DNA of 28,132 nt from a virus. A program made the position numbers and the translations under genes. Positions 5,016 through 28,132 of the stretch are shown one piece after another; position 1 is the first letter of the stretch; the number at the start of each line of letters is the position of its first letter. The DNA lies in the IMG/VR virus record IMGVR_UViG_3300042516_000975, positions 1-28,132 of that record; one strand, written 5' to 3'. The notes below the pieces were generated by a model. It was not told where the DNA came from. It made no database searches and was given only the letters and a program-made list of their open reading frames with translations.

Positions 5016-5564
5016 TTATCTCCTAGTTATTTTTGTCTGGTTACCCGCAAACGTTTTAAATAGATCAGAGGGCATATCCTGTCCAGATTCGATACGCTCT
5101 CTGACCACTGCCTTGAGTGTCTGGGCATGAACACCAACCTTCTGGACTGGTTCAAAACCCTGACCTCGTGCAAGGACAGCATATTGTGCTGCCTTGTTAT
5201 CTTCGCCACGACCAAAGGTAACAGTGATATCGTTTTTAATGATATCGCCTAGACCGTTGTTACGAAGCCATGTAAAAGCTTGTTCCTGAACTTCTGGAAC
5301 AATAGATGCACTGTAAAAAGGTTTTACTTCTACAGATTCACCATCTTTAAGCTTTAATTTTGTAATGTGCATTTCTTGCATCATAATAGGTATTTCTACT
5401 TGAGAAAGTATTCTTGCTTGTTCTTTTAATTTATTAATACTTTCTTCTGCGTTAGCAATCTCGTCTTCTAAATCTTTTAATTTTAAAACTTTATCTGATA
5501 AAGTTTTTGCAGCATCAATTTGTGTAACTGATTCTACTCGGTCTTGTTCAAAATTTATTGTCAT
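5016..5564 (-). CDS. Conserved phage protein with N-terminal coiled coil; chimeric base composition
   Basis: A 182-residue protein. Residues about 15-60 are heptad-rich and charged (KVLKLKDLEDEIANAEESIN), predicting a coiled coil. The C-terminal half (FTWLRNNGLGDIIKNDITV, then ARGQGFEPVQ and a basic QTKITRR tail) looks globular. No enzyme motif is visible and the function is unknown. It is the first gene after an exact-consensus promoter and has a good Shine-Dalgarno (AAAGG) 7 bases before its ATG, so it should be strongly expressed. By hand count the half encoded at 5041-5280 is about 46% GC, while 5281-5520 is about 29% GC like the surrounding genes. That hints at recombination inside the gene. 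Confidence 0.8.
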   Translation of the reverse strand: MTINFEQDRVESVTQIDAAKTLSDKVLKLKDLEDEIANAEESINKLKEQARILSQVEIPIMMQEMHITKLKLKDGESVEVKPFYSASIVPEVQEQAFTWLRNNGLGDIIKNDITVTFGRGEDNKAAQYAVLARGQGFEPVQKVGVHAQTLKAVVRERIESGQDMPSDLFKTFAGNQTKITRR

Positions 5565-5587
5565 ATTATTACCTTTCTATTCTGTAT

Positions 5588-5616
5588 ATTATAATCCCTT
5601 AAATTACGTTTGTCAA
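5588..5616 (-). promoter_or_regulatory. Exact-consensus sigma70-type promoter of the replication operon
   Basis: On the minus strand, TTGACA (5611-5616) is followed by a 17-base spacer and TATAAT (5588-5593): both hexamers match consensus and the spacing is optimal. The -35 box contains the TGA stop of the 118-residue gene. Transcription should start near 5581, giving a leader of about 17 bases with AAAGG before the ATG at 5564. It would fire from unmodified host RNA polymerase, which suits early expression of primase, helicase and DNA polymerase. Confidence 0.85.
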
Positions 5617-5969
5617 GTGCTCGTTTCAGATTTTTGATACAAGTCAATTTCAATTGGATAATATCTCCTTTCTTGTTTATCCCATTTTAATAATTTATAC
5701 TTGCCATTAGTAATATCAGATACAACTGAACATGCAACACCAATTATTGCAGGATCACCTGTAAGTAGTAAATAATCTTCTGAAGTGTAATCTTTTAGCA
5801 ACTGTCGTAACTTAAATACAACAGGTCCAGCACTTAATATTATTTGTGCATTTTCTGGAAGAAGAACTTTTAATGAACCATATTGAGAAGCTCCAATAAT
5901 ATTTATCTTTGGCCTACCTTCTCTTGTGCCTGGCACATCTTGAATAACGTAAACTTTATTTTTTTCCAT
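5613..5969 (-). CDS. Conserved small phage protein, unknown function
   Basis: A 118-residue protein counted from ATG 5969. An in-frame TTG three codons earlier (5978) is a possible alternative start, but ATG fits better with the sequence MEKNKVYVIQDVPGTREG. The fold looks alternating beta-alpha: VYVIQDV, KINIIGASQYG, KVLLPENAQII, then LLLTGDPAIIGVACSV. No catalytic motif is recognised. Similar small proteins are, from memory, common in marine podoviruses. It is the gene nearest the divergent promoter region, and its stop codon lies within the -35 element of the replication promoter. Its own promoter is unclear: a TATACT -10 overlaps the opposing -10 at 5994-5999 but has no good -35. Confidence 0.75.
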   Translation of the reverse strand: MEKNKVYVIQDVPGTREGRPKINIIGASQYGSLKVLLPENAQIILSAGPVVFKLRQLLKDYTSEDYLLLTGDPAIIGVACSVVSDITNGKYKLLKWDKQERRYYPIEIDLYQKSETST

Positions 5970-5971
5970 TC

Positions 5972-6001
5972 TTGACAATGTGTATATTAATGTAGTATAG
6001 T
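5972..6001 (+). promoter_or_regulatory. Sigma70-type promoter for the plus-strand helicase
   Basis: TTGACA (5972-5977, exact -35), an 18-base spacer and TATAGT (5996-6001, one mismatch to -10). The predicted start is near 6008, about 22 bases before the helicase ATG at 6030. The -35 lies across the start region of the opposite-strand gene, and the -10 overlaps a minus-strand TATACT, so the two directions may compete. Confidence 0.7.
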
Positions 6002-6029
6002 AATCAATAGAAAGAACTAACTATTATAT

Positions 6030-7463
6030 ATGAATTATAAGTTTAAGACAAAGCCATTCGCACATCAATTAAAGGCATTAGAAATGTCTTGGGATAAGAA
6101 AGTATTTGCTTATTTTATGGAAATGGGAACCGGTAAGTCTAAAGTATTAATAGATAATATGTCAATACTTTATGATAAAGGCCTTATAAATGGCGCCTTA
6201 ATTATAGCTCCTAAAGGTGTTTATAAGAACTGGTTTGACTCTGAAATACCAACTCATATGGCAGATCATATAGAGAAAAAAATGGTGTTATGGGAATCTA
6301 GTGCAGGTAAATCTAAAGAAAAAGAATTAGATACATTATTTAAATCTAGTTACGATCTTCATATTTTAATTATGAATGTAGAAGCATTGTCTACTAAAAA
6401 AGGAAAACAGTTTGCTGAAAAGTTTTTAAGTTGTCATAAAACTTTAATGGCAATAGATGAATCAACTACAATAAAAAATCCAGGAGCGAATAGAACAAAA
6501 AATATTATCGCAATAGGAAAACATGTTACATATAAAAGAATATTAACAGGATCACCAGTAACTAAATCTCCATTAGATTTATATACTCAATGTTGGTTTT
6601 TAGATCCTTGGTTATTAGATCAACAATCTTATTACAGTTTTAGAACTAGATATGCTTTAACTCGTAAAATAAATGTAAGTGGTAGACAAGTTGAGATAGT
6701 AGTTGGTTATAGAAATCTTGGTGAACTATCAGATAAAATAAAACCTTTTTCACACAGAGTTTTAAAAGATGATTGTTTAGATTTACCACCTAAAACATAT
6801 ATGAAAAGAACTATTCAATTAACAGAAGAACAAAGAAAAGTTTATAAACAAATGAAAGATATAGCATTAGCTACATTGAATGGAAAATTAACTACAACAC
6901 ATAATGTAATCACTCAATTAATGAGACTACATCAAATAACTTGTGGTCATTTTAAATCGGATGATGGTCAAACACAAAAAATAGCAAGCAATAGATTAGA
7001 TGAACTAATGGATGTTTTATCTGAAATGGAAGGTAAAGCAGTTATATGGGCTCACTATAGATATGATATAGAAGTTATTGTTGAAGCTATTAAAAAAGAA
7101 TATGGAGATAAATCTGTTGTTACTTATTATGGAGATACTTCTACAGATGATAGACAAAAAGCAATTAAGTTAATTCAAGATCCAGAAAGTTCAGTTAGAT
7201 TTATTGTTGGTACACCACAAACAGGGGGTTATGGTATTACATTAACAGGTGCCTCTACTATGATTTATTATTCTAATGGATATGACTTAGAAAAACGTCA
7301 GCAATCTGAAGCTAGAATAGATCGTATTGGCCAAGAAAAACCAATGACTTATATTGACATCATTGCAGAAGGAACTGTAGATGAAAAAATTGTAAAAGCT
7401 TTAAGAACTAAAGTTGATATTGCAACTCAAATTATGGGAGAAGATTTGAAGGAGTGGATATAA
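6030..7463 (+). CDS. SNF2-type superfamily 2 helicase/ATPase
   Basis: A 477-residue compact SNF2-family protein with all core motifs: a Q-like element FAHQLKALEMSW (10-21), Walker A MGTGKS (32-37), Walker B AIDEST (141-146), motif III TGSPVT (173-178), and in the second RecA domain GGYGITLTGAS, then a motif VI region QSEARIDRIGQ ending with the SNF2 signature of a Gln after RIG. No accessory DNA-binding or nuclease domain is fused. Such small SNF2 proteins occur in several phages and may remodel replication forks or drive branch migration. It is the only plus-strand gene in the window, with its own promoter and a hairpin that straddles its stop codon. The upstream Shine-Dalgarno is weak (GAAAGAA). 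Confidence 0.92.
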   Translation: MNYKFKTKPFAHQLKALEMSWDKKVFAYFMEMGTGKSKVLIDNMSILYDKGLINGALIIAPKGVYKNWFDSEIPTHMADHIEKKMVLWESSAGKSKEKELDTLFKSSYDLHILIMNVEALSTKKGKQFAEKFLSCHKTLMAIDESTTIKNPGANRTKNIIAIGKHVTYKRILTGSPVTKSPLDLYTQCWFLDPWLLDQQSYYSFRTRYALTRKINVSGRQVEIVVGYRNLGELSDKIKPFSHRVLKDDCLDLPPKTYMKRTIQLTEEQRKVYKQMKDIALATLNGKLTTTHNVITQLMRLHQITCGHFKSDDGQTQKIASNRLDELMDVLSEMEGKAVIWAHYRYDIEVIVEAIKKEYGDKSVVTYYGDTSTDDRQKAIKLIQDPESSVRFIVGTPQTGGYGITLTGASTMIYYSNGYDLEKRQQSEARIDRIGQEKPMTYIDIIAEGTVDEKIVKALRTKVDIATQIMGEDLKEWI

Positions 7464-7493: not shown

Positions 7494-7568
7494 TTATTTA
7501 TAGTTGTTATAGATTAAATATAATACGATTATAAAACAAATAATAAAAAATAATGTAAGTGTAGTCAT
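7494..7568 (-). CDS. Predicted 24-residue single-span membrane peptide coupled to the Hsp20 gene
   Basis: The stop of the Hsp20 gene and the start of this frame share bases as TAATG (ATG at 7568). The product, MTTLTLFFIICFIIVLYLIY then NNYK, is one hydrophobic span with a short polar C-terminal tail, ending in TAA at 7494-7496. No independent Shine-Dalgarno is close, so it would be translated by coupling. The DNA is very AT-rich, which makes hydrophobic frames likelier by chance. In favour are the TAATG junction, used repeatedly in this genome, and the fact that the frame ends before the terminator hairpin. Function unknown. A lysis or membrane role is possible. Confidence 0.45.
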   Translation of the reverse strand: MTTLTLFFIICFIIVLYLIYNNYK

Positions 7569-7990
7569 TATTTTACGTCTACTTTAACGCCTTCAACTTC
7601 TTTTGGTTCTTTAAAACCAAGTTTAATTTTAAGTAGACCATCTTTCATTTCAGCTTCGTCAATTACTACATCTTTAGCAAGTTCGAATTGTTTGAAAAAT
7701 TTTCTAAATGCTAGACCTTTTTGTACATAGTCTATATTTTTATCTTCTACTTTTCCTTCTACTGTTAAGATACCATCTTTAACTTCTACAAGTATATTTT
7801 CTTTATTGTATCCAGCTAAACCGATTTCTAAACCATATTTACCTTTTGAGTATTTTACTACGTTATAGAATGGAAATGATTGTGCTTTTGACCACGTGTC
7901 AAAAATACTTTCAAAAGAATCATCAAAAAACTTTGTTGATCCATTGAATAATTGTTTGCTTAAATTATTAAAAACTTCTAAGTTTGTCAT
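7568..7990 (-). CDS. Small heat shock protein (Hsp20/alpha-crystallin family)
   Basis: A 140-residue protein from ATG 7990, chosen because AAAGGAG lies 6 bases upstream; the frame could extend 14 codons further without a ribosome site. The alpha-crystallin domain spans about residues 38-130: FPFYNVVKYSKGKYGLEIGL, then KENILVEVKDGILTVEGKV, the LAFRKFFKQFELAKDV stretch, and a final GLLKIKLG, the site where family members carry the G-L-L motif. It is an ATP-independent holdase chaperone that keeps unfolding proteins soluble. Phage-encoded Hsp20 genes are known from marine cyanophages and probably aid virion assembly or protect host proteins late in infection. It sits downstream of the decarboxylase homologue, with about 75 bases between them. 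Confidence 0.9.
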   Translation of the reverse strand: MTNLEVFNNLSKQLFNGSTKFFDDSFESIFDTWSKAQSFPFYNVVKYSKGKYGLEIGLAGYNKENILVEVKDGILTVEGKVEDKNIDYVQKGLAFRKFFKQFELAKDVVIDEAEMKDGLLKIKLGFKEPKEVEGVKVDVK

Positions 7991-8065
7991 AATTATCTCC
8001 TTTGTTAAGCAAGTTAATTGGTCCATCCACATGATGCAACCTGGAAGATATATAATGATTATTTA

Positions 8066-8638
8066 TTAATTTTCAAGTACTGATTTTTCTCTTATAATAT
8101 GACCAAGAACTGTGCCTTTATGAATACCTTCTTTAATTGTATATCCAGAAGTTCCATTACCATTAATTTCAACTTCTTTACGACTTTTCATTAATACATT
8201 ATTTTTCATTTCTATTTCTTTATTTGCATAATTTTTAGCTATTGGATCGGTATAAGTTATAGTATGTATTTCACTTAAGTTATTTTCTCTATCTAAAAAT
8301 TTGTATTCTATTTTCGTTGTATTAAAATCTTTTTTTATTTTTTCACATATTGTTTCAGGATCAAATTCACCGCATGAGTAAACATCAAACTGAAGTAAGG
8401 CGGGATCAGGTTCATCCCAAACATGCATTACTATATGAGATGTTTCAATAATAGCAGCGCCGGTAATTCCACGATTTCCAATTATATGAGAGTACTTAAC
8501 ATAAGGACCCATCATAACCTTCATACCTATTTCTTCTATAAATTTTTTAAACCACTCTGTAAGAACAGTTTCATCCACCGGAGGATTTTTAGCCTCAGCT
8601 CTTACGATAAGATGTTTATGAACTAAAATTTTATCCAT
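8066..8638 (-). CDS. speD: S-adenosylmethionine decarboxylase homologue
   Basis: A 190-residue protein with the SpeD core: YSHIIGNRGITGAAI (49-63), ETSHIVMHVWDE (65-76) and FDVYSCGEF (84-92). By alignment to bacterial class 1B enzymes, S67 would be the serine that becomes the pyruvoyl cofactor, H72 the processing base and C89 the proton donor. The reaction yields decarboxylated S-adenosylmethionine for spermidine synthesis, and polyamines help neutralise packaged DNA. Two oddities: the residue before S67 is Thr where family members usually have Glu, and about 60 C-terminal residues after the core are unlike the usual 120-130-residue enzyme. speD is a known auxiliary gene in marine phages. Homology is firm, activity less so. 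Confidence 0.83.
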   Translation of the reverse strand: MDKILVHKHLIVRAEAKNPPVDETVLTEWFKKFIEEIGMKVMMGPYVKYSHIIGNRGITGAAIIETSHIVMHVWDEPDPALLQFDVYSCGEFDPETICEKIKKDFNTTKIEYKFLDRENNLSEIHTITYTDPIAKNYANKEIEMKNNVLMKSRKEVEINGNGTSGYTIKEGIHKGTVLGHIIREKSVLEN

Positions 8639-18522: not shown

Positions 18523-19922
18523 TATGTTAAATCAAACCATTTTAATAAACCAGATACATCTCCATTAGCTGTTCCTGGTCTTACACCTAATGTTAAAGTA
18601 TCTGACACACCTGCAATAGTTTGTCCAAGTTGATTTGAAAATGCTATAAAATCTCCACCTAAAGTAAAAGGTGAAGTTTTACCACCTAAGTATCCACCAG
18701 CAATTCTTGTTCCTAATGTAGTTAAATCAATTGTAGTTAAATCATATTCTACATTATCACTAAAACTTGTATATGAAAATGGAGAGGATGGTGTAGCATT
18801 AACAAATAATCCCCATTCAAAATCTCCATTAGATATGTTTAAAACATCTATTCCAGCTGGCACTATAACTGCATATGGTCTTGAAGTCTTAATTCTAATT
18901 GTTGCAATATTATAATAAGTATTTGCTGTTGTTAAATTCACACCAGCACTAACTGTAGCTGTTCCAACCATTTGTTCTAATCCTTGTGGAGAATAACCAC
19001 CTTCAGAAATACAAGAAGAACATATTTGTTGTAATGTATAAGTACCTGCTGTTAATGTTCCAGCTCTTTCAATTTCATAACGAATTGGAAGATTAGCTGT
19101 TTGCATATAAACAGTTGTTAAATTGTTAGCATTAAGAAATGTATGTGCTGTAATTAATTGACCATTAATAACAAATCCAACTCTAACAGATCCAACCCCT
19201 AACCATTCAATATCTATAAATAATATATTAGATGTCGCTGGATCTAAATCAAATCCACTTGCACCTGTTCCATCTAATTTATCACCGTTCCAACTAGATT
19301 GTGATATTTCAGTATCAACTGCTGCACCCGATGTAAAAGTTCGTCTTACTATTTTAAGTGTTGTTCCATCTGCTGTAAAAAATATTCCGTTATTTGTATC
19401 AAATAAACCAACTTTTTGTTTTAAGTTTGTAGTAGGTTCATTCATTACAAAGGTATTAAAAATAAGCAATGATTTACCCGGTTGATAAGACATCACTCTA
19501 TTAGACTGTCTCACTGTTTTAGAACTTGCCGCTTCTGTTACATTTAAATTAACTGTTGATTTATTAGCTGTGTAAGTAACGCTTCCACCATTTGCAGTAG
19601 TTGCATTAAATAAAGTATTCTGTGACATTATATTCTTACTGTCAAAGATAGTTAAAGGATTAGAAACTCTTAATCTTCCAAATGCATCATAAGCATTAGA
19701 ACCAGATCCTCCACCTATTTGAATAGGTTGTGGCGGGCAAAAAGAGCCAGCTTGTGTTCCATATATAAATTGTGTCATAGCAGATTGTTGATTAATTAAA
19801 TCTTGTTGATATCCAAAGTTAAGTTGATCTTTAATAGTATTAAGTGCTTCAAGTATTTGTCTTTGATTATTAACATCATAATTTTGTGTTGGTTCTGGTA
19901 TATATGCACTTATCTTTGCCAT
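18522..19922 (-). CDS. Virion structural protein with AYDAFGRLRVSNP motif
   Basis: A 466-residue beta-rich protein with a short helical N-terminus (RQILEALNTIKDQLNFGYQQ, 21-40) that may anchor it to the virion. The segment NAYDAFGRLRVSNPLTIFDS (76-95) is a motif I recognise from marine viral structural proteins, including tail- and head-fibre-like proteins. The remainder is Thr/Asn/Gly-rich with repeated beta strands and few Lys, as usual for secreted or particle-exposed domains. Three cysteines cluster around ICSSCISEGG. It lies between the tail-hub-like gene and a small virion protein with TAATG overlaps at both ends. The exact particle position is unknown. Confidence 0.75.
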   Translation of the reverse strand: MAKISAYIPEPTQNYDVNNQRQILEALNTIKDQLNFGYQQDLINQQSAMTQFIYGTQAGSFCPPQPIQIGGGSGSNAYDAFGRLRVSNPLTIFDSKNIMSQNTLFNATTANGGSVTYTANKSTVNLNVTEAASSKTVRQSNRVMSYQPGKSLLIFNTFVMNEPTTNLKQKVGLFDTNNGIFFTADGTTLKIVRRTFTSGAAVDTEISQSSWNGDKLDGTGASGFDLDPATSNILFIDIEWLGVGSVRVGFVINGQLITAHTFLNANNLTTVYMQTANLPIRYEIERAGTLTAGTYTLQQICSSCISEGGYSPQGLEQMVGTATVSAGVNLTTANTYYNIATIRIKTSRPYAVIVPAGIDVLNISNGDFEWGLFVNATPSSPFSYTSFSDNVEYDLTTIDLTTLGTRIAGGYLGGKTSPFTLGGDFIAFSNQLGQTIAGVSDTLTLGVRPGTANGDVSGLLKWFDLT

Positions 19923-22099
19923 TATCTTCTACCACCTGCTTCAATATCTAGTCTCAAAGTTCCATATCTCCAAGTTTCATTTACTGCATCATTTTCTATT
20001 TTTAAACTCACTTGTCTTCCTCGCACACGTGTGTCTACCTTATCAGTTGAAGATGTAATTGTAAAAGGTCCAGTAATTAAAGGAGGTGTATTAGAAGGTA
20101 TTGAATTTGCATTTGCTGGATAGTCTCTAAAGAATAAAGTTATTTTTGCATTTCCTTCTAAACTTTTAAAGTCTGGAATAAATCGTTTAATACGCATAAT
20201 AAGCTGACCATCCCCACCTAAACCTTGTTCTGATATATCGTAATCTCCAGATTGAATATATGCTGCAATAGCTGTTGCATTACCATTTACATCTACTTCA
20301 TTAAAACCCGTTTCTTGTGCCCAGTATTTAGTTGAACCAAAGGTATTAGTTGCACCATTGATAGTTGGAAATGTTGGTATACTATTTGTGATATATTGTG
20401 TTGCATAAGGTAAATTAAAAGTTTGTGCATCAATATAAGTTGTTCTAGCTAAAGAACCAACTGCCCAAGTATTTTCAACAAAATTATATACTACATTTCT
20501 ATCTACTTGAGTTGATCCAGCTTTTGCATAATTCCAACCAACTTCATTATATAATGAATTGTGATATGCATAAGTTATTTGACTTGCATCATAATTAAAT
20601 CCTAAATTGTCTCCAATATCTGTAAATACAAAATCTTCAACAAGGGAGGGTATTTGTTTAACTGTTCCATCAAATGCAAAGAAACCACCCCCAAATCCCA
20701 TCCAAAATACAGCGCCTTGTGCGTATATCATTGCATGTTGACCAATACATCCACAATTTGTTCCAACTTGTCTTATAGAGAATGTAAATGGAGGACCAAC
20801 GAATTGAATTGTATATGCAGCTTGATCTGTAAGAACTAATATATAATCTTTACCTTGTAATGCTCCTATAATTTCATTTCCCGTATCTAGTCTAAAGGTA
20901 CCAGCAGTGTTTGTAACCGTTGGATTCCAAGTATTAATATCTTCTTGATTTGAGAATCTTATAAACATTGGGTCTTGTGTAGATGGGTCTCCAATAGTTG
21001 TTTCTGTTCCCATTAAGAATAAATGTCTATCTCGATCTGATACAACACTCATAATGGACGCCGTCGGTGCACCTGATACAATCGTTGCTCTTACTCCTAG
21101 TCTTCCAGGACTAGAAGGATTCCAAGTAAAAGTTTTTCCATTTTTAATAGTTGCAACTAGAATCTGACCAAAGTTATCTAGCGACCAAGAAGCAGGAGAA
21201 AGAGTAACTCCTATGTTATTAGATTCTTCTCCCCAATCAACCCAATCTGTTGCATTAGTTACAATTGCATTATCTAAATGAGATGCCGCTGTTGATCCAT
21301 TTACACCCCTAACACAACCTGTAAAAGTAGTTCCGGTTTTACCTGTGTAAGTAATTAATTCTGTTCCAATATCTATTCGCCCTGTTGTTGGAAATGCAGC
21401 AGTTGCATCTACAGTAATAGTTGTGTCTGAATTGTTAAGTGCTCCATCTAATTGTGTTGTAACTGAAGTTGGTATTGTTCCACCGAAATATCCTGTACCA
21501 TAACCAAATGCAGGGGTTTGAGATATAGGTCCAATTTTAATGTAAGGAGTTGTAGTAATAGTACCTCCTGCTGTTACACCTGTTCCACCTTCAACACTTG
21601 GCATTGTAACTGTAAAGGTTCCAGACGTAGGTACTGATAAAACTTCAAAAACATTTGTTGTAAAATCTGCTGATGTATAACTTGTTGTAGTAGGTCCTGG
21701 AGTTGTGACACTTGTAAATATAATATAATCACCAACCTCTAATCTATGAGCTATTTTGTTAATGGTAACAGTTGCTGAACCCGTTGTAGATGTATACGTA
21801 CAAGATGTTAAAGCTGTTCCAAGTGGAGTAATATCAAAAAATTCTGTCTCATAGTAAATAACCAATAATTTTGAAGTACCAATAGCTGCATATTTTTTAC
21901 CATCTAATGCTGTCCACGTATGCTGTTCGCGTGCGGGACCTGCTAAGGTGCTAGCAACGAGTTGTTGAAATCCACCTATTTTTTGTGGTTCACCATAACG
22001 AAATCTTATATTATCACCATCAATCCATTGCCCTTCAGCTCCGGTTGCAGTCTGTTGTTTATTGAATCCAGGTTTAAACTGTATTTTTTGTAATGGCAT
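19922..22099 (-). CDS. Tail-hub or stabilisation-type virion protein (beta-propeller-like)
   Basis: A 725-residue protein starting MPLQKIQFKPGFNKQ, followed by GQWIDGDNIRFRYGEPQKIG. That opening (a Trp, then R-F-R-x-G-x-P-x-K-I-G-G) is typical of a phage structural family placed near the tail tube or hub of short-tailed phages, comparable in role to P22 gp10 or T7 gp12. A Thr-rich insertion at about 105-185 looks like an added beta domain. The rest has repeated blocks of beta strands (DYILVLTDQAAYTIQF, AVFWMGFGGGFFAFDG) expected for propeller blades. AGAGGG precedes the ATG closely. It is the first gene after the 22.1-kb intergenic hairpins. Confidence 0.72.
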   Translation of the reverse strand: MPLQKIQFKPGFNKQQTATGAEGQWIDGDNIRFRYGEPQKIGGFQQLVASTLAGPAREQHTWTALDGKKYAAIGTSKLLVIYYETEFFDITPLGTALTSCTYTSTTGSATVTINKIAHRLEVGDYIIFTSVTTPGPTTTSYTSADFTTNVFEVLSVPTSGTFTVTMPSVEGGTGVTAGGTITTTPYIKIGPISQTPAFGYGTGYFGGTIPTSVTTQLDGALNNSDTTITVDATAAFPTTGRIDIGTELITYTGKTGTTFTGCVRGVNGSTAASHLDNAIVTNATDWVDWGEESNNIGVTLSPASWSLDNFGQILVATIKNGKTFTWNPSSPGRLGVRATIVSGAPTASIMSVVSDRDRHLFLMGTETTIGDPSTQDPMFIRFSNQEDINTWNPTVTNTAGTFRLDTGNEIIGALQGKDYILVLTDQAAYTIQFVGPPFTFSIRQVGTNCGCIGQHAMIYAQGAVFWMGFGGGFFAFDGTVKQIPSLVEDFVFTDIGDNLGFNYDASQITYAYHNSLYNEVGWNYAKAGSTQVDRNVVYNFVENTWAVGSLARTTYIDAQTFNLPYATQYITNSIPTFPTINGATNTFGSTKYWAQETGFNEVDVNGNATAIAAYIQSGDYDISEQGLGGDGQLIMRIKRFIPDFKSLEGNAKITLFFRDYPANANSIPSNTPPLITGPFTITSSTDKVDTRVRGRQVSLKIENDAVNETWRYGTLRLDIEAGGRR

Positions 22100-22198: not shown

Positions 22199-22223
22199 TA
22201 AAATTAGAACTACTTTAATTTTA
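22199..22223 (-). terminator. AT-only hairpin overlapping the stop of the first-listed oxygenase gene
   Basis: TAAAATTA (22199-22206) and TAATTTTA (22216-22223) are perfect inverted repeats around 9 bases. On the minus strand the stem includes the TAA stop of the 192-residue oxygenase gene. It is all A-T, so the RNA stem is weak. With the larger stem 24 bases further on it may form a two-part terminator. The rest of 22100-22220 holds no gene I can see, only a TATAAT (22108-22113) without a good -35. Confidence 0.3.
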
Positions 22224-22799
22224 CCATACCCATGAAATAAAAGAATATCTAGTTCCTTTTTTTACAGGTTCTACTTTATGAGGATATAAAAATATAGAAG
22301 GAAATATTAACAAATCTCCTTTTTTTAATTTAATTTCTTCTTTTTCAAACATTACAAATTCTCCTCCTTCATAATTATCATTTAAAATTCCTAACACACT
22401 TAATATTGGAATACCTTTTTCTTTACCTTCAAATAAAGAATGTATATGATCGCAATGTTCTGCCATTTTTTTATTTTTTGAATATTTATTAAATCTAATT
22501 TCACTATATGCACTCCAACCATTAAACCAAGTAAATTTTAAATTACACACATAATCATGAATTCCATTCCATAATTTTTTCATAATAATTTCTTTTGTGG
22601 ATATTTCTTTTGAGATCAATGTAGACAATTCGTGATTTCCAGATTTTTTTATTAAAGTTTTTTCTATTGGATGATAAAATCTATGTTCTACCCATGAAGA
22701 TTTATGTATTGAATTTAACTCATGAACAGTTTTATCACATAATGATTTATCCAAAAAAGATTTATAATGTTTTACATAATAAGATAAATCTTTTTTCAT
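22221..22799 (-). CDS. Fe(II)/2-oxoglutarate-dependent oxygenase (prolyl 4-hydroxylase-like)
   Basis: A 192-residue double-stranded beta-helix protein. The iron triad is H115-x-D117 in MAEHCDHIHS and H174 in LYPHKVEPV, with R184 (KGTRYSFISWVW) placed to bind 2-oxoglutarate. NDNYEGGEFVMF (140-151) and KKGDLLIFPS (159-168) are further signatures of the P4Hc group. The reaction couples 2-oxoglutarate decarboxylation to hydroxylation of a substrate, perhaps a Pro or other side chain of a protein, or a small metabolite. It overlaps the second oxygenase by ATGA and is last in the five-gene cassette. Such enzymes are frequent in marine phages, with unknown substrates. Confidence 0.87.
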   Translation of the reverse strand: MKKDLSYYVKHYKSFLDKSLCDKTVHELNSIHKSSWVEHRFYHPIEKTLIKKSGNHELSTLISKEISTKEIIMKKLWNGIHDYVCNLKFTWFNGWSAYSEIRFNKYSKNKKMAEHCDHIHSLFEGKEKGIPILSVLGILNDNYEGGEFVMFEKEEIKLKKGDLLIFPSIFLYPHKVEPVKKGTRYSFISWVW

Positions 22800-23410
22800 A
22801 ATATAAGTTCGGTTAATTCTTCATTAATACCTATTTTTCCTTTAATAAAAACATTAAAAGCTAAACTAATTCTGGTGTTAGTACCTTCTTTATTTTCTAC
22901 CGCGTGAGGCAGAGAAGAGGGAAACATTATAATGTCTCCAGTTTTGACTGGAAACCACCAAGATTCAGAATTCCATAAATTCCAATCTTTAATTTCAGGT
23001 TTTATAGTTTTATAACTTTCATTAAAAAATTTAATTTTATCTAATGTTTCATGGCAGTTAATATAAAATACCCCCGATACTATAGAATTAGGATGTGCAT
23101 GTTTATGATGAAATTGATTGGTTTCAGTAAAATTTAACCAAGATTGTGTAATATAAGGTATAACTGTGTTAACAGGACATATAACTTTTTCAAAATAATC
23201 TTTTACTTTTAATTCTAATTCTTTTTTAATATTGGCAAAAGGTTTTTCATTAAGAATATAATTATTTTTTGATGTAATGTTTCCAGAATTTTTATAGAAA
23301 TTTTTTTTAGATTTATCTACAAAGTTTAATTCTAGCGGTTTTAATTTTCTATTTAATTTAGACACATAGATAGGTGTCGGAAATATACTATTAATAGTAG
23401 ACTTTATCAT
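22796..23410 (-). CDS. Fe(II)/2-oxoglutarate oxygenase-like protein of the TIGR02466 type
   Basis: A 204-residue protein with the opening typical of the TIGR02466 group: SIFPTPIYVSKL (8-19). The core has QSWLNFTETNQFHHKHAHPN (89-108), then SGVFYINCHE, VKTGDIIMFPSSLPHAVE (155-172) and NTRISLAFNVF with R180. Likely iron ligands are among H102, H104 and H106 plus H169; a clear HxD is absent, so the second ligand is uncertain. It is only distantly similar to the neighbouring 192-residue oxygenase, so the pair is not a simple recent duplication. It shares ATGA overlaps on both sides. It probably hydroxylates a substrate related to the same pathway. Confidence 0.82.
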   Translation of the reverse strand: MIKSTINSIFPTPIYVSKLNRKLKPLELNFVDKSKKNFYKNSGNITSKNNYILNEKPFANIKKELELKVKDYFEKVICPVNTVIPYITQSWLNFTETNQFHHKHAHPNSIVSGVFYINCHETLDKIKFFNESYKTIKPEIKDWNLWNSESWWFPVKTGDIIMFPSSLPHAVENKEGTNTRISLAFNVFIKGKIGINEELTELIL

Positions 23411-23751
23411 TTTAATTTATTTCTTATTTTAGTTGCTGATATTTCTTGTATTTCTTTTGGTAAAACAATTTCTTCAATCTTATAACCAACATCTCTACCA
23501 TAACATATGTTAGTAATATTTGGAACTTTAATAACTTCAAATTTTCCTACATAATCTTTGAGTTTTTCTTCAATACGTTTTTTAATATCATCAAATTGAA
23601 AAGGATTATTTTCTGATTCAGGCATAGATCGTACCATAATAATAACTTGTTCCGTCTTCTTTAATATCTCTTTAAATAAAGCTAAATGACCATCGTGAAA
23701 TGGTTGCCATCGCCCAAGCATTTGGGCAGTAGGTTTAGAGTAGTCTATCAT
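23407..23751 (-). CDS. Small HxGH nucleotidylyltransferase
   Basis: A 114-residue protein of the cytidylyl/adenylyltransferase superfamily. GRWQPFHDGH (13-22) holds the HxGH signature (H19, H22) that binds the nucleotide triphosphate, and ISATKIR (104-110) is the second signature, with Thr and Arg contacting phosphates. VIIMVRSMPESENNPFQFDD is the middle segment. It joins a nucleoside monophosphate from ATP or CTP to a phosphate- or anion-bearing acceptor. The substrate is not readable. Because it is sandwiched between an adenylylsulfate-kinase-like gene and sulfotransferase on one side and oxygenases on the other, an ATP sulfurylase-type role is a possibility, but sugar-phosphate or NMN chemistry is equally consistent with the fold. 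Confidence 0.83.
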   Translation of the reverse strand: MIDYSKPTAQMLGRWQPFHDGHLALFKEILKKTEQVIIMVRSMPESENNPFQFDDIKKRIEEKLKDYVGKFEVIKVPNITNICYGRDVGYKIEEIVLPKEIQEISATKIRNKLK

Positions 23752-24124
23752 ATATCTCCTTTATTATGTTATCATATTTAAAATTAGTTATTTCAAAATC
23801 AACTTTTTTAGGTTTCTCAAATACTTTATTGGTATCTTCAAATATTCCTTTATCAATTGTATTCATCCAAATCTTCATATCATAGAAAGATCTATAAGAT
23901 TCAAATGGACATACGAAATCTACAACTACATGATTAACTGCAAGATCACACATTGTCATCATTCTGTTTGCTTGGCGTCTTCTACCTACATCTGTAAAAT
24001 CCCAATCTTCAAATAGTTTTCTAATTTCATTAGCATTAAAATGAGGTATCTTTTTACCTTCTACTAATTTTTTAGCAAATGTTGTTTTACCAGATCCTGG
24101 TAATCCAAATATTAATATTTTCAT
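23735..24124 (-). CDS. Adenylylsulfate-kinase-like P-loop kinase
   Basis: A 129-residue P-loop protein: Walker A GLPGSGKT (7-14), then HFNANEIRKLF (28-38), where APS kinases have DGD-x-x-R, and DFTDVGRRRQANRM (42-55), like the family's S-x-x-D-R-x-E-N-x-R region. VVVDFVCPFESYR (66-78) matches the strand before the family's conserved I-x-P-x-x-x-R. It is shorter than CysC (about 200 residues) and lacks part of the C-terminal lid. The expected reaction is ATP-dependent phosphorylation of adenylylsulfate to PAPS. A different small kinase of the AAA_33 group is possible. It overlaps the sulfotransferase by ATGA and the nucleotidylyltransferase by 17 bases. Confidence 0.75.
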   Translation of the reverse strand: MKILIFGLPGSGKTTFAKKLVEGKKIPHFNANEIRKLFEDWDFTDVGRRRQANRMMTMCDLAVNHVVVDFVCPFESYRSFYDMKIWMNTIDKGIFEDTNKVFEKPKKVDFEITNFKYDNIIKEIYDRLL

Positions 24125-24858
24125 ATATCTAAATTAGAATATTGTTTAATTATATTAGCTGGTAAATAATCTTTAACATTATATTTGTTTAACTTTATTT
24201 TATCAGTTCTTATTTTGTGTAAAGGTAACTTATAAATACTGTCATTATAATCAACATTGTTAACGGAAAATTGTTTTAAATTATTTAAATCAAAATTTGT
24301 AAAAGGAATTTTTAAATAATTAAACATTGTTTTAATTTGTTTATTTGGATTTTTTATAAAATCTTTATAATGTATAATAATATGATCTTCTTTTTCTTTT
24401 ATGATGTTTTTTATACTCCAAAGACTTTTTCCAATTATACCATTACAACTCATTAATTCATAACACCTTTCTTCTACATTAGCCGGATTTTCTATTTTTA
24501 TAAAAGAAGCTAAACATTCTAAAACAGGTCTATATAAAACAATAAATTTGGGATTTTTAATTATTTCTTTTAAATATTTTAAATTACCGGGAGTACCCCA
24601 TGGGCCTCTATCAATAATGTTATCTACATTCCAATTTTCATAATAATTATTAAATACATTTTTTATAATATTATCCAATGATTTTTTATCAGGAAAATTT
24701 TTATATATTTCAATATCTTTAATTAATTGTAATTGATAAATGACATCTGTTAAAATTGTATTAGCTGTTAATTTTACAGATTCAGATTGATTTATTATAG
24801 AACCTAATAAAGTATTACCTGCTCTTGGTAAACCGCATAAAAAATAAATATTATTCAT
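24121..24858 (-). CDS. PAPS-dependent sulfotransferase
   Basis: A 245-residue protein with both PAPS-binding elements: the 5'-phosphosulfate loop CGLPRAGNTLLG (8-19) and the 3'-phosphate site FIVLYRPVLECLASFIK (105-121) with R110, S118 and K121 in the usual spacing. IIHYKDFIKNP is the conserved later strand-helix region. The enzyme would move sulfate from PAPS to a hydroxyl or amine of a sugar, protein or small molecule. No signal peptide or membrane span is present, so it acts in the cytoplasm. The gene begins 23 bases after the tail-associated gene, with no obvious Shine-Dalgarno, and opens the five-gene cassette. Confidence 0.87.
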   Translation of the reverse strand: MNNIYFLCGLPRAGNTLLGSIINQSESVKLTANTILTDVIYQLQLIKDIEIYKNFPDKKSLDNIIKNVFNNYYENWNVDNIIDRGPWGTPGNLKYLKEIIKNPKFIVLYRPVLECLASFIKIENPANVEERCYELMSCNGIIGKSLWSIKNIIKEKEDHIIIHYKDFIKNPNKQIKTMFNYLKIPFTNFDLNNLKQFSVNNVDYNDSIYKLPLHKIRTDKIKLNKYNVKDYLPANIIKQYSNLDI

Positions 24859-24881: not shown

Positions 24882-25253
24882 TTATGTTGTTTGTAAAGCC
24901 CAGTTTTTAATTTCTTCGTTCCAAGTATATTTGTTACCATCTGTTGGATAAGCAACAGGGGCATTCCAAAGACAAGTATCTTCGTTTAATATCCAACTAT
25001 TATAAGGCTTAGGTGGAATAAAAACATCTCTTGTTTCATCATAAGTATAACCTATACCTGCGTAATTTTTTCTAAATGGTGTTCCTCCTAATTGATGAAC
25101 TCCTCCAATTGTATTATAAGAAGTACGTTTGCAAAGTTGCCCACGAAAATTACCATAGTGTTGTTCCCAATTAACACCTTCTTCATTTTCGTTTTTACCA
25201 ACTATCACTTCTATTACTATATTGTTTTCATCTAAAAATGCGTAATGTGCCAT
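24882..25253 (-). CDS. Conserved small tail-associated phage protein
   Basis: A 123-residue protein of a type I recognise as frequent next to tail-fibre genes of marine myo- and podoviruses. The N-terminus is MAHYAFLDENNIVIEVIVG. The core is GGTPFRKNYAGIGYTYDETR (56-75), then PPKPYNSWILNEDTCLWNAP (80-99) and a C-terminal DGNKYTWNEEIKNW. The Trp and Pro content suggests a compact beta fold with repeated W-N-E elements. No enzymatic motif. It follows the glycine-rich adhesin with a one-base gap, so a chaperone or attachment component of the fibre is plausible. Confidence 0.72.
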   Translation of the reverse strand: MAHYAFLDENNIVIEVIVGKNENEEGVNWEQHYGNFRGQLCKRTSYNTIGGVHQLGGTPFRKNYAGIGYTYDETRDVFIPPKPYNSWILNEDTCLWNAPVAYPTDGNKYTWNEEIKNWALQTT

Positions 25254-26148: not shown

Positions 26149-27243
26149 TTATTTAAATTGTGTTTGTGCTGCTAATACTGTGTATGTTGATGCTGCTGTT
26201 TTAAGAGCTGTGTAAGTGTAGACATCATTAGATGAAGTGTTTCCAGCTGTTGGAGCTGTTCCACCTTGCCAAACTACTGTAACGTTTGTAGATGTGCCAT
26301 CAACTAAAACAGATGTGTTATAAAATGTTGTGTTGCCTTGTTTTGTGATTAATGCAACTGTTGCAGATTCACCAGTGTTTAAAGCCGCGTTTAATGCAGT
26401 TGAAGCATTTCCTCTTAAATTAACTGTAAAGTTTGCACCTAAATTAACATTTTGAAAATATACAGCTTGTGTAAGTACATCATATGTAAATGATGTTATA
26501 AAAGTTGTAGAAATTGTTGCACCTTCAAAAATACCAAATACTTTTGATTCACCATTTAATGTAATTCTTCCAAGATCACCTTTTGGTGTCAATGTTAATC
26601 CAACATTTGTATCTCCACCTGTTGCAGAAATAACTGGACTTGATCCAGCTGCAGCATTTGCAATTGTTATTTCATTTGTAGCTGATGCAGTTGTTGAAAA
26701 TTTAATTTGTTCGTTAGCATTTTCATCTATAATTCCATATGTAGAATCAATAATAATATTTTTTGCATTAGTATCTAAGTTTGCAGATAACTGTGGGGCA
26801 GCGTCATTAGATAATTTTCCAATATTAGAATCTACAACATCAGTTCCATTTAAATATAAAAGTTTTGTTCCTTTATCTGTTGCAGAAAAAGTAACTCCTG
26901 TTTGACCATTAACTTTTACTGTTACAGTAAAAGCACCTGATGTATTATTTTTAATTACATAAACTTTTTCATCCGGTCCTGTTGAATCTGAAGGAATAGT
27001 AACATCTACGTTTCCTGTAATAGTTCCTGAAAGTTCTAATACTGCATTTTTACCATTTGAAAGAGCACCATTAGTATATGTTAATGTAACTCCTGTTGTT
27101 GCGTTTAATGTAACTGATTCATAACCAGCGATTGCTTGCTGAAGAATAACTAAATTTGTATTTGTAATATCACCCCATGTACCGGCGTTTTCGCCAGTTA
27201 CTTGTATCTCTAGTTTGAGGTCTGTAGAATAACTTGATGCCAT
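26149..27243 (-). CDS. Tail fibre protein
   Basis: A 364-residue Thr/Asn/Ala-rich beta protein. The start MASSYSTDLKLEIQVTGENA followed by GTWGDITNTNL is the usual N-terminal signature of marine phage fibre proteins, from memory. The body has stretches resembling fibre shaft strands (VYVIKNNTSGAFTVTVKVNG) and a middle region (IIIDSTYGIIDENANEQIKF) that may be a trimeric beta segment; the C-terminus is beta-rich (NVTVVWQGGTAPTAGNTSS). No endopeptidase cleavage motif was identified. TAAGGA lies about 9 bases before the ATG. It is flanked by the repeat fibre gene and the glycine-rich adhesin, so it probably belongs to the same receptor-binding apparatus. Confidence 0.78.
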   Translation of the reverse strand: MASSYSTDLKLEIQVTGENAGTWGDITNTNLVILQQAIAGYESVTLNATTGVTLTYTNGALSNGKNAVLELSGTITGNVDVTIPSDSTGPDEKVYVIKNNTSGAFTVTVKVNGQTGVTFSATDKGTKLLYLNGTDVVDSNIGKLSNDAAPQLSANLDTNAKNIIIDSTYGIIDENANEQIKFSTTASATNEITIANAAAGSSPVISATGGDTNVGLTLTPKGDLGRITLNGESKVFGIFEGATISTTFITSFTYDVLTQAVYFQNVNLGANFTVNLRGNASTALNAALNTGESATVALITKQGNTTFYNTSVLVDGTSTNVTVVWQGGTAPTAGNTSSNDVYTYTALKTAASTYTVLAAQTQFK

Positions 27244-27276
27244 AATTTTAATTCCTTATGTTATATAGTATTTAAT

Positions 27277-28132
27277 TTAAGCGGCGGTGTCAATCTCTAT
27301 CCAATTTGCCGTAGCTCCGGTATTAATATTGGACCAATTTGCACTAGTTCCAGTATTTATTTCAGTCCAAATTTGATTATTTATATTATTTAAAGCTATA
27401 GTCAATTCATTTCCAATAGGAGATATGTTTGCATTAGCTGAAATAATTACTGAATTTAATAATGTATTTAATTGTTGCCCTGTTACATTAATAATACTAT
27501 TAGGAATAACATCTACTGAATTTAAAGATAAATTTAATTGTTGCCCTGTTATATCTACATTAGCATTAGCTAGAGTTGTTACAGAATTTAATGAAGTATT
27601 TAATCTTTCTCCAGTTACAAAAACTACAGTATCAAGAAAAATATTTACTGAATCTAAAGAAAAATTTAACTGCTCCCCTGTTACATCAACATTAGCTTCT
27701 CCTCTAATATTTACAGAGTTTAAAGAAAGATTTAATTGTTCCCCTACTACATCTACATTAGCATTAGCTAAAGCTGTTACAGAATTTAAGAATACATTTA
27801 TTTGTTGACCAGTAACTTCAGCATCTGGAGAAGCATCCACAATTCCTTCAACAATACTTAACTGTTGCCCTGCTACATCTACATTAGCATTAGCTAAAGC
27901 TGTTACAGAATTTAAAGAAAGATTTAACTGTTCCCCTGCTACATCTACATTAGCATTAGCTAAAGCTGTTACAGAATTTAAAGAAAGATTTAACTGTTCC
28001 CCTGTTACATCTACATTAGCATTAGCTAAAGCTGTTACAGAATTTAAAGAAAGATTTAACTGTTCCCCTGCTACATCTACATTAGCATTAGCTAAAGCTG
28101 TTACAGAATTTAAAAAAAGATTTAACTGTTGA
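27277..28132 (-). CDS. Tandem-repeat fibre-like protein; N-terminus beyond right window edge
   Basis: The frame is open from the right edge to TAA at 27277-27279, giving 284 visible residues; the true start is outside the window (a GTG at 27840 is only an internal codon). It consists of about twelve 22-residue units of consensus GEQLNLSLNSVTALANANVD, one of them two residues short, followed by a C-terminal cap of 11-residue W-x-x-I-x-T-G repeats (IWTEINTGTSAN, WSNINTGATAN, WIEIDT). The alternating hydrophobic pattern predicts stacked beta strands. Similar TGQ-x-L repeats occur in marine phage fibre and surface proteins. Neighbouring fibre genes support a shaft or fibre role. No catalytic motif. 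Confidence 0.8.
   Translation of the reverse strand, partial: QQLNLFLNSVTALANANVDVAGEQLNLSLNSVTALANANVDVTGEQLNLSLNSVTALANANVDVAGEQLNLSLNSVTALANANVDVAGQQLSIVEGIVDASPDAEVTGQQINVFLNSVTALANANVDVVGEQLNLSLNSVNIRGEANVDVTGEQLNFSLDSVNIFLDTVVFVTGERLNTSLNSVTTLANANVDITGQQLNLSLNSVDVIPNSIINVTGQQLNTLLNSVIISANANISPIGNELTIALNNINNQIWTEINTGTSANWSNINTGATANWIEIDTAA
27373..28131 (-). repeat. 66-bp tandem repeat array encoding 22-residue units
   Basis: The period is 66 bases. Units at 27901-27966 and 28033-28098 are identical, and 27967-28032 differs from them by one base. Units nearer 27373 are diverged, and one at about 27842-27901 is shortened by two codons. The array continues past the right edge. The near-identity at one end points to recent unit duplication. 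Confidence 0.92.

Follow-up and report, generated by a model that had tools for sequence, protein, structure and literature searches.

The IMG/VR virus record IMGVR_UViG_3300042516_000975 carries, in the 28,132-nucleotide (nt) stretch analyzed here (the window), three overlapping genes on the minus strand. They encode a sulfotransferase (ST; 24121-24858, 245 amino acids), a P-loop kinase that resembles kinases of adenosine 5'-phosphosulfate (APS) but has lost their lid (KIN; 23735-24124, 129 amino acids), and a minimal HxGH nucleotidylyltransferase (NT; 23407-23751, 114 amino acids). On balance, we favor a reading in which the three form a self-contained sulfonation module, a miniature synthetase of 3'-phosphoadenosine 5'-phosphosulfate (PAPS) that would feed the sulfotransferase, with NT as an unrecognized sulfate adenylyltransferase. 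In the route that we propose, NT would transfer AMP from ATP onto sulfate to give APS (adenylyl sulfate), KIN would phosphorylate the 3'-OH of APS to give PAPS, and ST, judged by its family, would move the sulfonate group from PAPS to a hydroxyl, possibly on a fiber tyrosine, a virion glycan, or a host-surface molecule.

Sulfotransferase genes track the kinase-nucleotidylyltransferase pair

Two genes for 2-oxoglutarate (2OG)-Fe(II) oxygenases, OG2 and OG1, follow NT in the window, and the initial annotation had described all five genes as one cassette. Its open reading frames (ORFs), with their coordinates and lengths, their overlaps (4-nt ATGA overlaps for ST/KIN, NT/OG2, and OG2/OG1; 17 nt for KIN/NT), and their position between fiber-type genes and a 725-amino-acid hub/needle gene were all as claimed. 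The five-gene unit itself was not borne out. Seeding on the neighboring hub gene avoids the bias of seeding on KIN-NT, and among the 53 fiber-to-hub islands obtained in this way, each with at least 3.5 kb upstream, KIN-NT and ST were present together in 10 and neither was present in 43 (p = 5e-11). This agreement in 53/53 islands rules out chance adjacency in a gene-rich island. Oxygenase genes were equally frequent in islands with and without KIN-NT (8/10 versus 35/43; p = 0.72). Because ST tracks KIN-NT across the islands and the oxygenases do not, the conserved module is the three genes ST, KIN, and NT, and the 2OG oxygenases are independent island genes.

Scans of IMG/VR returned 93 unique loci with distinct kinase genes, and the KIN/NT overlap of 17 or 14 nt recurred in 82 of them. 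At the 80 related viral loci whose sequence extends 800 nt or more upstream of KIN, an ST-like gene was always found within ~2 kb of KIN-NT (77 recognizable, 3 weak). The co-occurrence of a sulfotransferase with the pair, which the annotation had put forward as a check, is thus essentially absolute in this phage group (80/80 loci; 10/10 islands). These ST-like genes come from four families, three of them recognized by Pfam. The family of the window ST lies directly upstream of KIN at 57/80 loci and within ~2 kb at another 9. A second family (GLPKSGSN; Sulfotransfer_3 in the member tested) occupies 8/80, and a Sulfotransfer_2 gene is present at 3/80, convergent with NT at two of these. The fourth family ("ST3"; HTSFC[G/A]ST), at 3/80 loci, was counted apart; its assignment as sulfotransferase is weak, given an hhalign probability of 24%, no Pfam match for two of the three proteins, and an empty PDB search.

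KIN and NT are both under purifying selection (dN/dS 0.07-0.19). PHROG 10255, annotated as "kinase" and 230 positions long, is matched by the window KIN at positions 2-115 and by NT at 124-228, and what is a single fused protein elsewhere is thus split in two in the window.

Sulfotransferase and kinase

ST passes the Pfam cut-offs of both Sulfotransfer_3 (1.7e-8; 35.4 versus 27 bits) and Sulfotransfer_1 (2e-8; 34.4 versus 22 bits), and its profile matched the CurM sulfotransferase (1.7e-8) and TPST1 (1.6e-7) in the PDB. It has a GLPRAGNT segment like the 5'-phosphosulfate-binding motif and the Arg110-x7-Ser118 of the 3'-phosphate-binding motif; R12, G14, N15, T16, R110, and S118 are invariant among seven diverse relatives. 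Since ST keeps the Arg-x7-Ser motif, it should need a 3'-phosphorylated donor.

KIN scores 20.0 bits against Pfam APS_kinase (PF01583), just below the cut-off of 21.1, which many SAR11 relatives pass. Its best profile match in the PDB is an APS kinase (2e-12), and Foldseek agrees. When the AlphaFold2 model (mean predicted local distance difference test [pLDDT] score of 93.5) was compared with known structures, the top 29 rows were all APS kinases or APS-kinase-domain chains (Z 13.2-16.2), headed by 5cb8 (Z 16.2, root mean square deviation 2.0, 129 residues aligned); Kti12 (Z 13.1) and gluconate kinase (Z 12.8) came next. In Mycobacterium tuberculosis CysC, Arg483 and Arg497 hold the APS phosphosulfate, Phe492 and Phe576 sandwich the adenine, and Asp480 has been proposed as the base (PMC4373884). 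Arg483, Phe492, Arg497, Phe576, and Asp480 align with R35, F43, R48, F95, and residue 32 of KIN, respectively. Across 65 sequences R35, F43, and R48 never vary; the F95 position is F or Y. The annotation's structural comparison for the 129-residue protein thus came out in favor of an APS kinase, with this fold above all others and the phosphosulfate-contact residues kept. The fold and the APS-site residues make it well supported that kinases of this family would phosphorylate the 3'-OH of APS to yield PAPS.

Nucleotidylyltransferase

NT matches Pfam CTP_transf_like (1.2e-7) and displays the motifs GRWQPFHDGH, R41, NPF, N78, YGRDVGY, and ISATKIR. Its model (pLDDT 92, three strands) has the NMNAT/PPAT fold (PPAT Z 11.8, NMNAT Z 11.1). 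The nucleotide-binding half keeps the NadM-type GRxQPxHxGH and NPF, and residues 8-68 match the N-terminal 61 residues of phage NadM-type NMNAT with an hhalign probability of 98%. The nicotinamide mononucleotide (NMN)-binding segments of NadM, one containing a Trp and the other reading GHxKDxSSYYLKxFP, are absent from NT. In their place stands a shorter stretch with invariant N78 and Y84-G85-R86-x-V88-G89; R41 is likewise invariant (60 sequences).

The resemblance to NadM raises the possibility of NAD salvage, with KIN as a nicotinamide-riboside kinase and NT as an NMN adenylyltransferase. The first 70 residues of NT match NadM-type NMNAT, NAD-making genes do occur in phages, and the fused form of the pair overlaps a NADAR-type gene in Stenotrophomonas, Xanthomonas, and Clavibacter phages. 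We nevertheless regard salvage as quite improbable. The first half of NT fits an NMNAT but the acceptor half, where the NMN-binding segments should lie, does not, and NT falls far below the NCBIfam cut-off for NadM (TIGR01527; 35 versus 181 bits). In addition, KIN is APS-kinase-like, a genuine phage NMNAT adjoins a nicotinamide phosphoribosyltransferase, and none was seen beside KIN-NT, and salvage would leave the coupling to ST (10/10 versus 0/43 islands) unexplained. We infer that NT has a small anionic acceptor; with KIN and ST as partners, sulfate would be the natural candidate.

The pair in SAR11 genomes

The hub gene of the window has its nearest cultured relatives in Pelagibacter phages HTVC023P and HTVC027P, both of which infect strain HTCC1062, and the host of the window phage is therefore probably SAR11-like. 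In both phages 2OG oxygenases lie at the equivalent position; a search of the two for Sulfotransfer_1 gave no match. NT itself recurs at 65-71% identity, mostly adjoining or fused to KIN, in many Pelagibacteraceae genomes. A published report finds no cysDNCHIJ or sat in strain HTCC1062, although a table in the same paper gives one cysC and one cysQ (PMC5069961).

In a survey of 60 drawn SAR11 genomes, which are incomplete and related to one another, we found NT in 30, Sulfotransfer_3 in 26, Sat in 3, and full CysD plus CysNC in 5. KIN or NT was present in 21/26 genomes bearing Sulfotransfer_3 and in 12/34 others (p = 5e-4), and NT was missing from 4/5 genomes with full CysDNC. The association is supportive, not decisive. 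With CysDN and Sat missing from most SAR11-type hosts, the phage would carry the means to make PAPS itself, and the chromosomal pair would be the PAPS source for SAR11 sulfotransferases. KIN-NT does not appear to be a general proteobacterial pair: among the matches listed for 299 genomes drawn from the SAR11 phylum, adjacent halves occurred only in SAR11, and the other strong matches listed were to the kinase half only, in CysC/CysNC-like proteins. In several SAR11 genomes (as at L160 and L161), one or two long repeat-type genes (~700-760 amino acids) with apparently secreted products lie between KIN and NT.

A SAR11 host could also supply APS through AprBA, which makes it from sulfite and AMP; KIN alone would then make PAPS, and NT would serve a different purpose. 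AprBA is expressed in SAR11 (PMC5069961). We consider this arrangement very unlikely, as NT overlaps or is fused with KIN almost everywhere and the pair is found also in phages of unrelated hosts.

Evidence that tempers the assignment

Several observations weigh against a module that makes and uses PAPS. The first set concerns the enzymes. The best matches of NT are NMNAT and PPAT, and its sequence shows no recognizable relation to ATP sulfurylase (no PF01747 match in Pfam; hhalign probability of 2% with SAR11 Sat), so that an ordinary ATP sulfurylase is rejected by sequence. ATP sulfurylase does not figure among the 50 listed structural matches of NT, but absence from that list is no evidence. 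KIN lacks the APS-kinase lid that carries the catalytic Lys (CysC Lys562, and also Arg559), the region being reduced to only 6 residues, Thr89-Phe95, versus ~30 in CysC. Finally, whereas 202/204 distinct kinase sequences have the catalytic Asp, the window KIN has Asn32 (codon AAT at 24029-24031, minus strand), shared with one other sequence (2/204); its motif reads NANEIR, and nearly all relatives have NAD or NGD. Because this Asp is reported to be essential in mouse APS kinase (PMC4373884), the window's own KIN may be impaired, or it may use another base.

The annotation's proposal of a cluster for making and using activated sulfate thus stands in part: the ST coupling and the APS-kinase match of KIN argue for it, and its comparison of the 114-residue protein yielded an NMNAT/PPAT fold (98% with NadM) rather than ATP sulfurylase. 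Because the sequence of NT is not that of an ATP sulfurylase, we infer sulfate adenylylation from the company it keeps. The suggested sulfation of a fiber, virion glycan, or host surface and the link between hydroxylation and sulfation found no support here.

The kinase of the Campylobacter O-methyl phosphoramidate pathway, a CysC relative, offers a precedent for a different donor: KIN-NT might make a PAPS-like 3'-phosphonucleotide that carries some other small group, such as phosphoramidate or phosphonate, for the ST-like enzyme to transfer. The known nucleotidylyltransferase of that pathway, however, is not of the HxGH type. The substrate site of KIN would accept any small anion on a nucleoside monophosphate, and a donor of this kind would account for NT not being an ATP sulfurylase. 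A CDP-phosphoramidate kinase from Campylobacter has been published (reference 48 in PMC6429109). Against this, no phosphonate or glutamine-kinase gene was recognized around KIN-NT at the loci inspected, the sulfotransferases fall in the ordinary Sulfotransfer_1/2/3 families, and seawater sulfate stands at ~28 mM. We judge another small group unlikely.

The second set concerns gene context. KIN lies within 4 kb of only 16/65 sulfotransferase (ST1) relatives in viral contigs, as would be expected if other hosts supply PAPS. The SAR11 statistic is uncorrected for phylogeny and genome incompleteness, and 12 NT-positive SAR11 genomes gave no Sulfotransfer_3 match. Fused KIN-NT, in the order kinase then nucleotidylyltransferase, occurs in T4-like and other viruses as well as in Stenotrophomonas, Xanthomonas, and Clavibacter phages, and most of these records contain no recognized sulfotransferase. 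In none of the 23 fused viral loci with enough flank (0/23) is there an ST gene within 2.6 kb, a search of 19 records gave no Sulfotransfer_1 match, and few fused records carry Sulfotransfer_3. The pair therefore works in genomes without a recognized phage ST; either the PAPS goes to sulfotransferases of the host, or the product of the pair serves another use. It is chiefly this scarcity that holds our confidence in a PAPS-making module to a moderate level.

The neighbors of the fused genes in viruses include glycosyltransferases, a sugar dehydrogenase (UDP-glucose/GDP-mannose dehydrogenase), and NADAR, and in some also KdsA-like and HldE-like genes (these two by eye); the fused pair at one SAR11 locus (L211) adjoins a SIS-domain gene and glycosyltransferases. 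Such surroundings would suit a KIN that phosphorylates a sugar or alditol and an NT that adds the nucleotide, for glycosylation of the virion or cell surface, with sulfated glycans as the link to ST. No such neighbors are seen at loci of the window type, and KIN is nearer to APS kinases than to gluconate kinase (Z 16.2 versus 12.8). In hosts that cannot provide PAPS, moreover, ST would have to draw it from elsewhere, and a sugar pathway strikes us as improbable.

Two further features of these loci were recorded. In the Stenotrophomonas, Xanthomonas, and Clavibacter phages (L150-L152, ~5556-6732), the gene overlapped by the fusion is the upstream one, with a NADAR domain in L150. At L282, L284, and L286, an S-adenosylmethionine-synthetase-like gene (by eye) lies ~250-320 nt downstream of NT.

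Setting of the module in the window

Outside the conserved module, OG2 (22796-23410, minus strand, 204 amino acids) belongs to PF13759 (2OG-FeII_Oxy_5; 2.6e-21) and OG1 (22221-22799, minus strand, 192 amino acids) to PF13640 (2OG-FeII_Oxy_3; 1.8e-14). One border of the island is the hub/needle-type virion structural protein (19922-22099, minus strand, 725 amino acids; phrog_3287, 3e-86), and the other is a fiber-associated protein (24882-25253, minus strand, 123 amino acids; phrog_7759, 5e-41); the latter and 26149-27840 are the fiber-type genes flanking the cluster. An ORF of the fiber region (27277-27840) is built from short imperfect repeats (VTGEQLNxSLNSV). Elsewhere in the window, inspection by eye suggested a small heat-shock protein (7568-8032) and an S-adenosylmethionine-decarboxylase-like gene (8066-8638). 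Similar fiber-adjacent islands hold tryptophan-halogenase and carbamoyltransferase genes recognized by Pfam (L072:3592-4998 and L334:4666-5733), which suggests that the complement of tailoring enzymes at this position varies among such phages.

Implications and comparison with known systems

In the prevailing view, SAR11 bacteria cannot activate sulfate, having neither cysDNCHIJ nor sat; sulfotransferases are nonetheless found in many of their genomes and in their phages. It is an even call whether NT founds a new minimal family of sulfate adenylyltransferases, unrelated to Sat and CysDN, that together with a lidless APS kinase would constitute the smallest known PAPS synthetase, serving as the PAPS source of many SAR11 and borne by phages with interchangeable sulfotransferases. 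If so, it would be a third, nonhomologous route from sulfate to PAPS, explaining how SAR11 and their phages sulfate anything; PHROG 10255 would gain a function, as would a gene pair common in SAR11, and phages would be supplying the whole donor-plus-transferase module.

APS-kinase-type genes are familiar from environmental viruses as phage cysC auxiliary metabolic genes, a term that several virus surveys use. We found no description of the ST-KIN-NT coupling or of the partner NT in the literature searched; a paper on OM43 phages mentions sulfotransferases, their role unknown. The Campylobacter pathway is similar in having a kinase that makes a 3'-phosphorylated activated donor but differs in its type of nucleotidylyltransferase, and no other gene of that pathway is seen here. 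NT shares GRxQPxHxGH, NPF, ISxTxIR, and the fold with PPAT and with NadM-type/archaeal NMN adenylyltransferases; it is ~25-30 residues shorter, and an invariant N..YGRxVGY replaces the NMN-binding segments. With bacterial CysC and CysNC, KIN has in common the P-loop, the APS-site Arg/Phe/Arg, and a YExP-like C-terminal motif (FEKP in KIN), whereas it lacks ~25 lid residues, has GRxRQ in place of DRxEN, and has no CysD or CysN alongside. The animal PAPS synthases PAPSS1/2 resemble the phage pair in their APS-kinase-related domain, in the kinase-nucleotidylyltransferase order seen in the fusions, and in the coupling to sulfotransferases. They differ in that KIN is lidless and NT is a 114-amino-acid protein of NadM/PPAT type, unrelated in sequence to ATP sulfurylase, and KIN and NT together total ~245 amino acids, compared with ~600.

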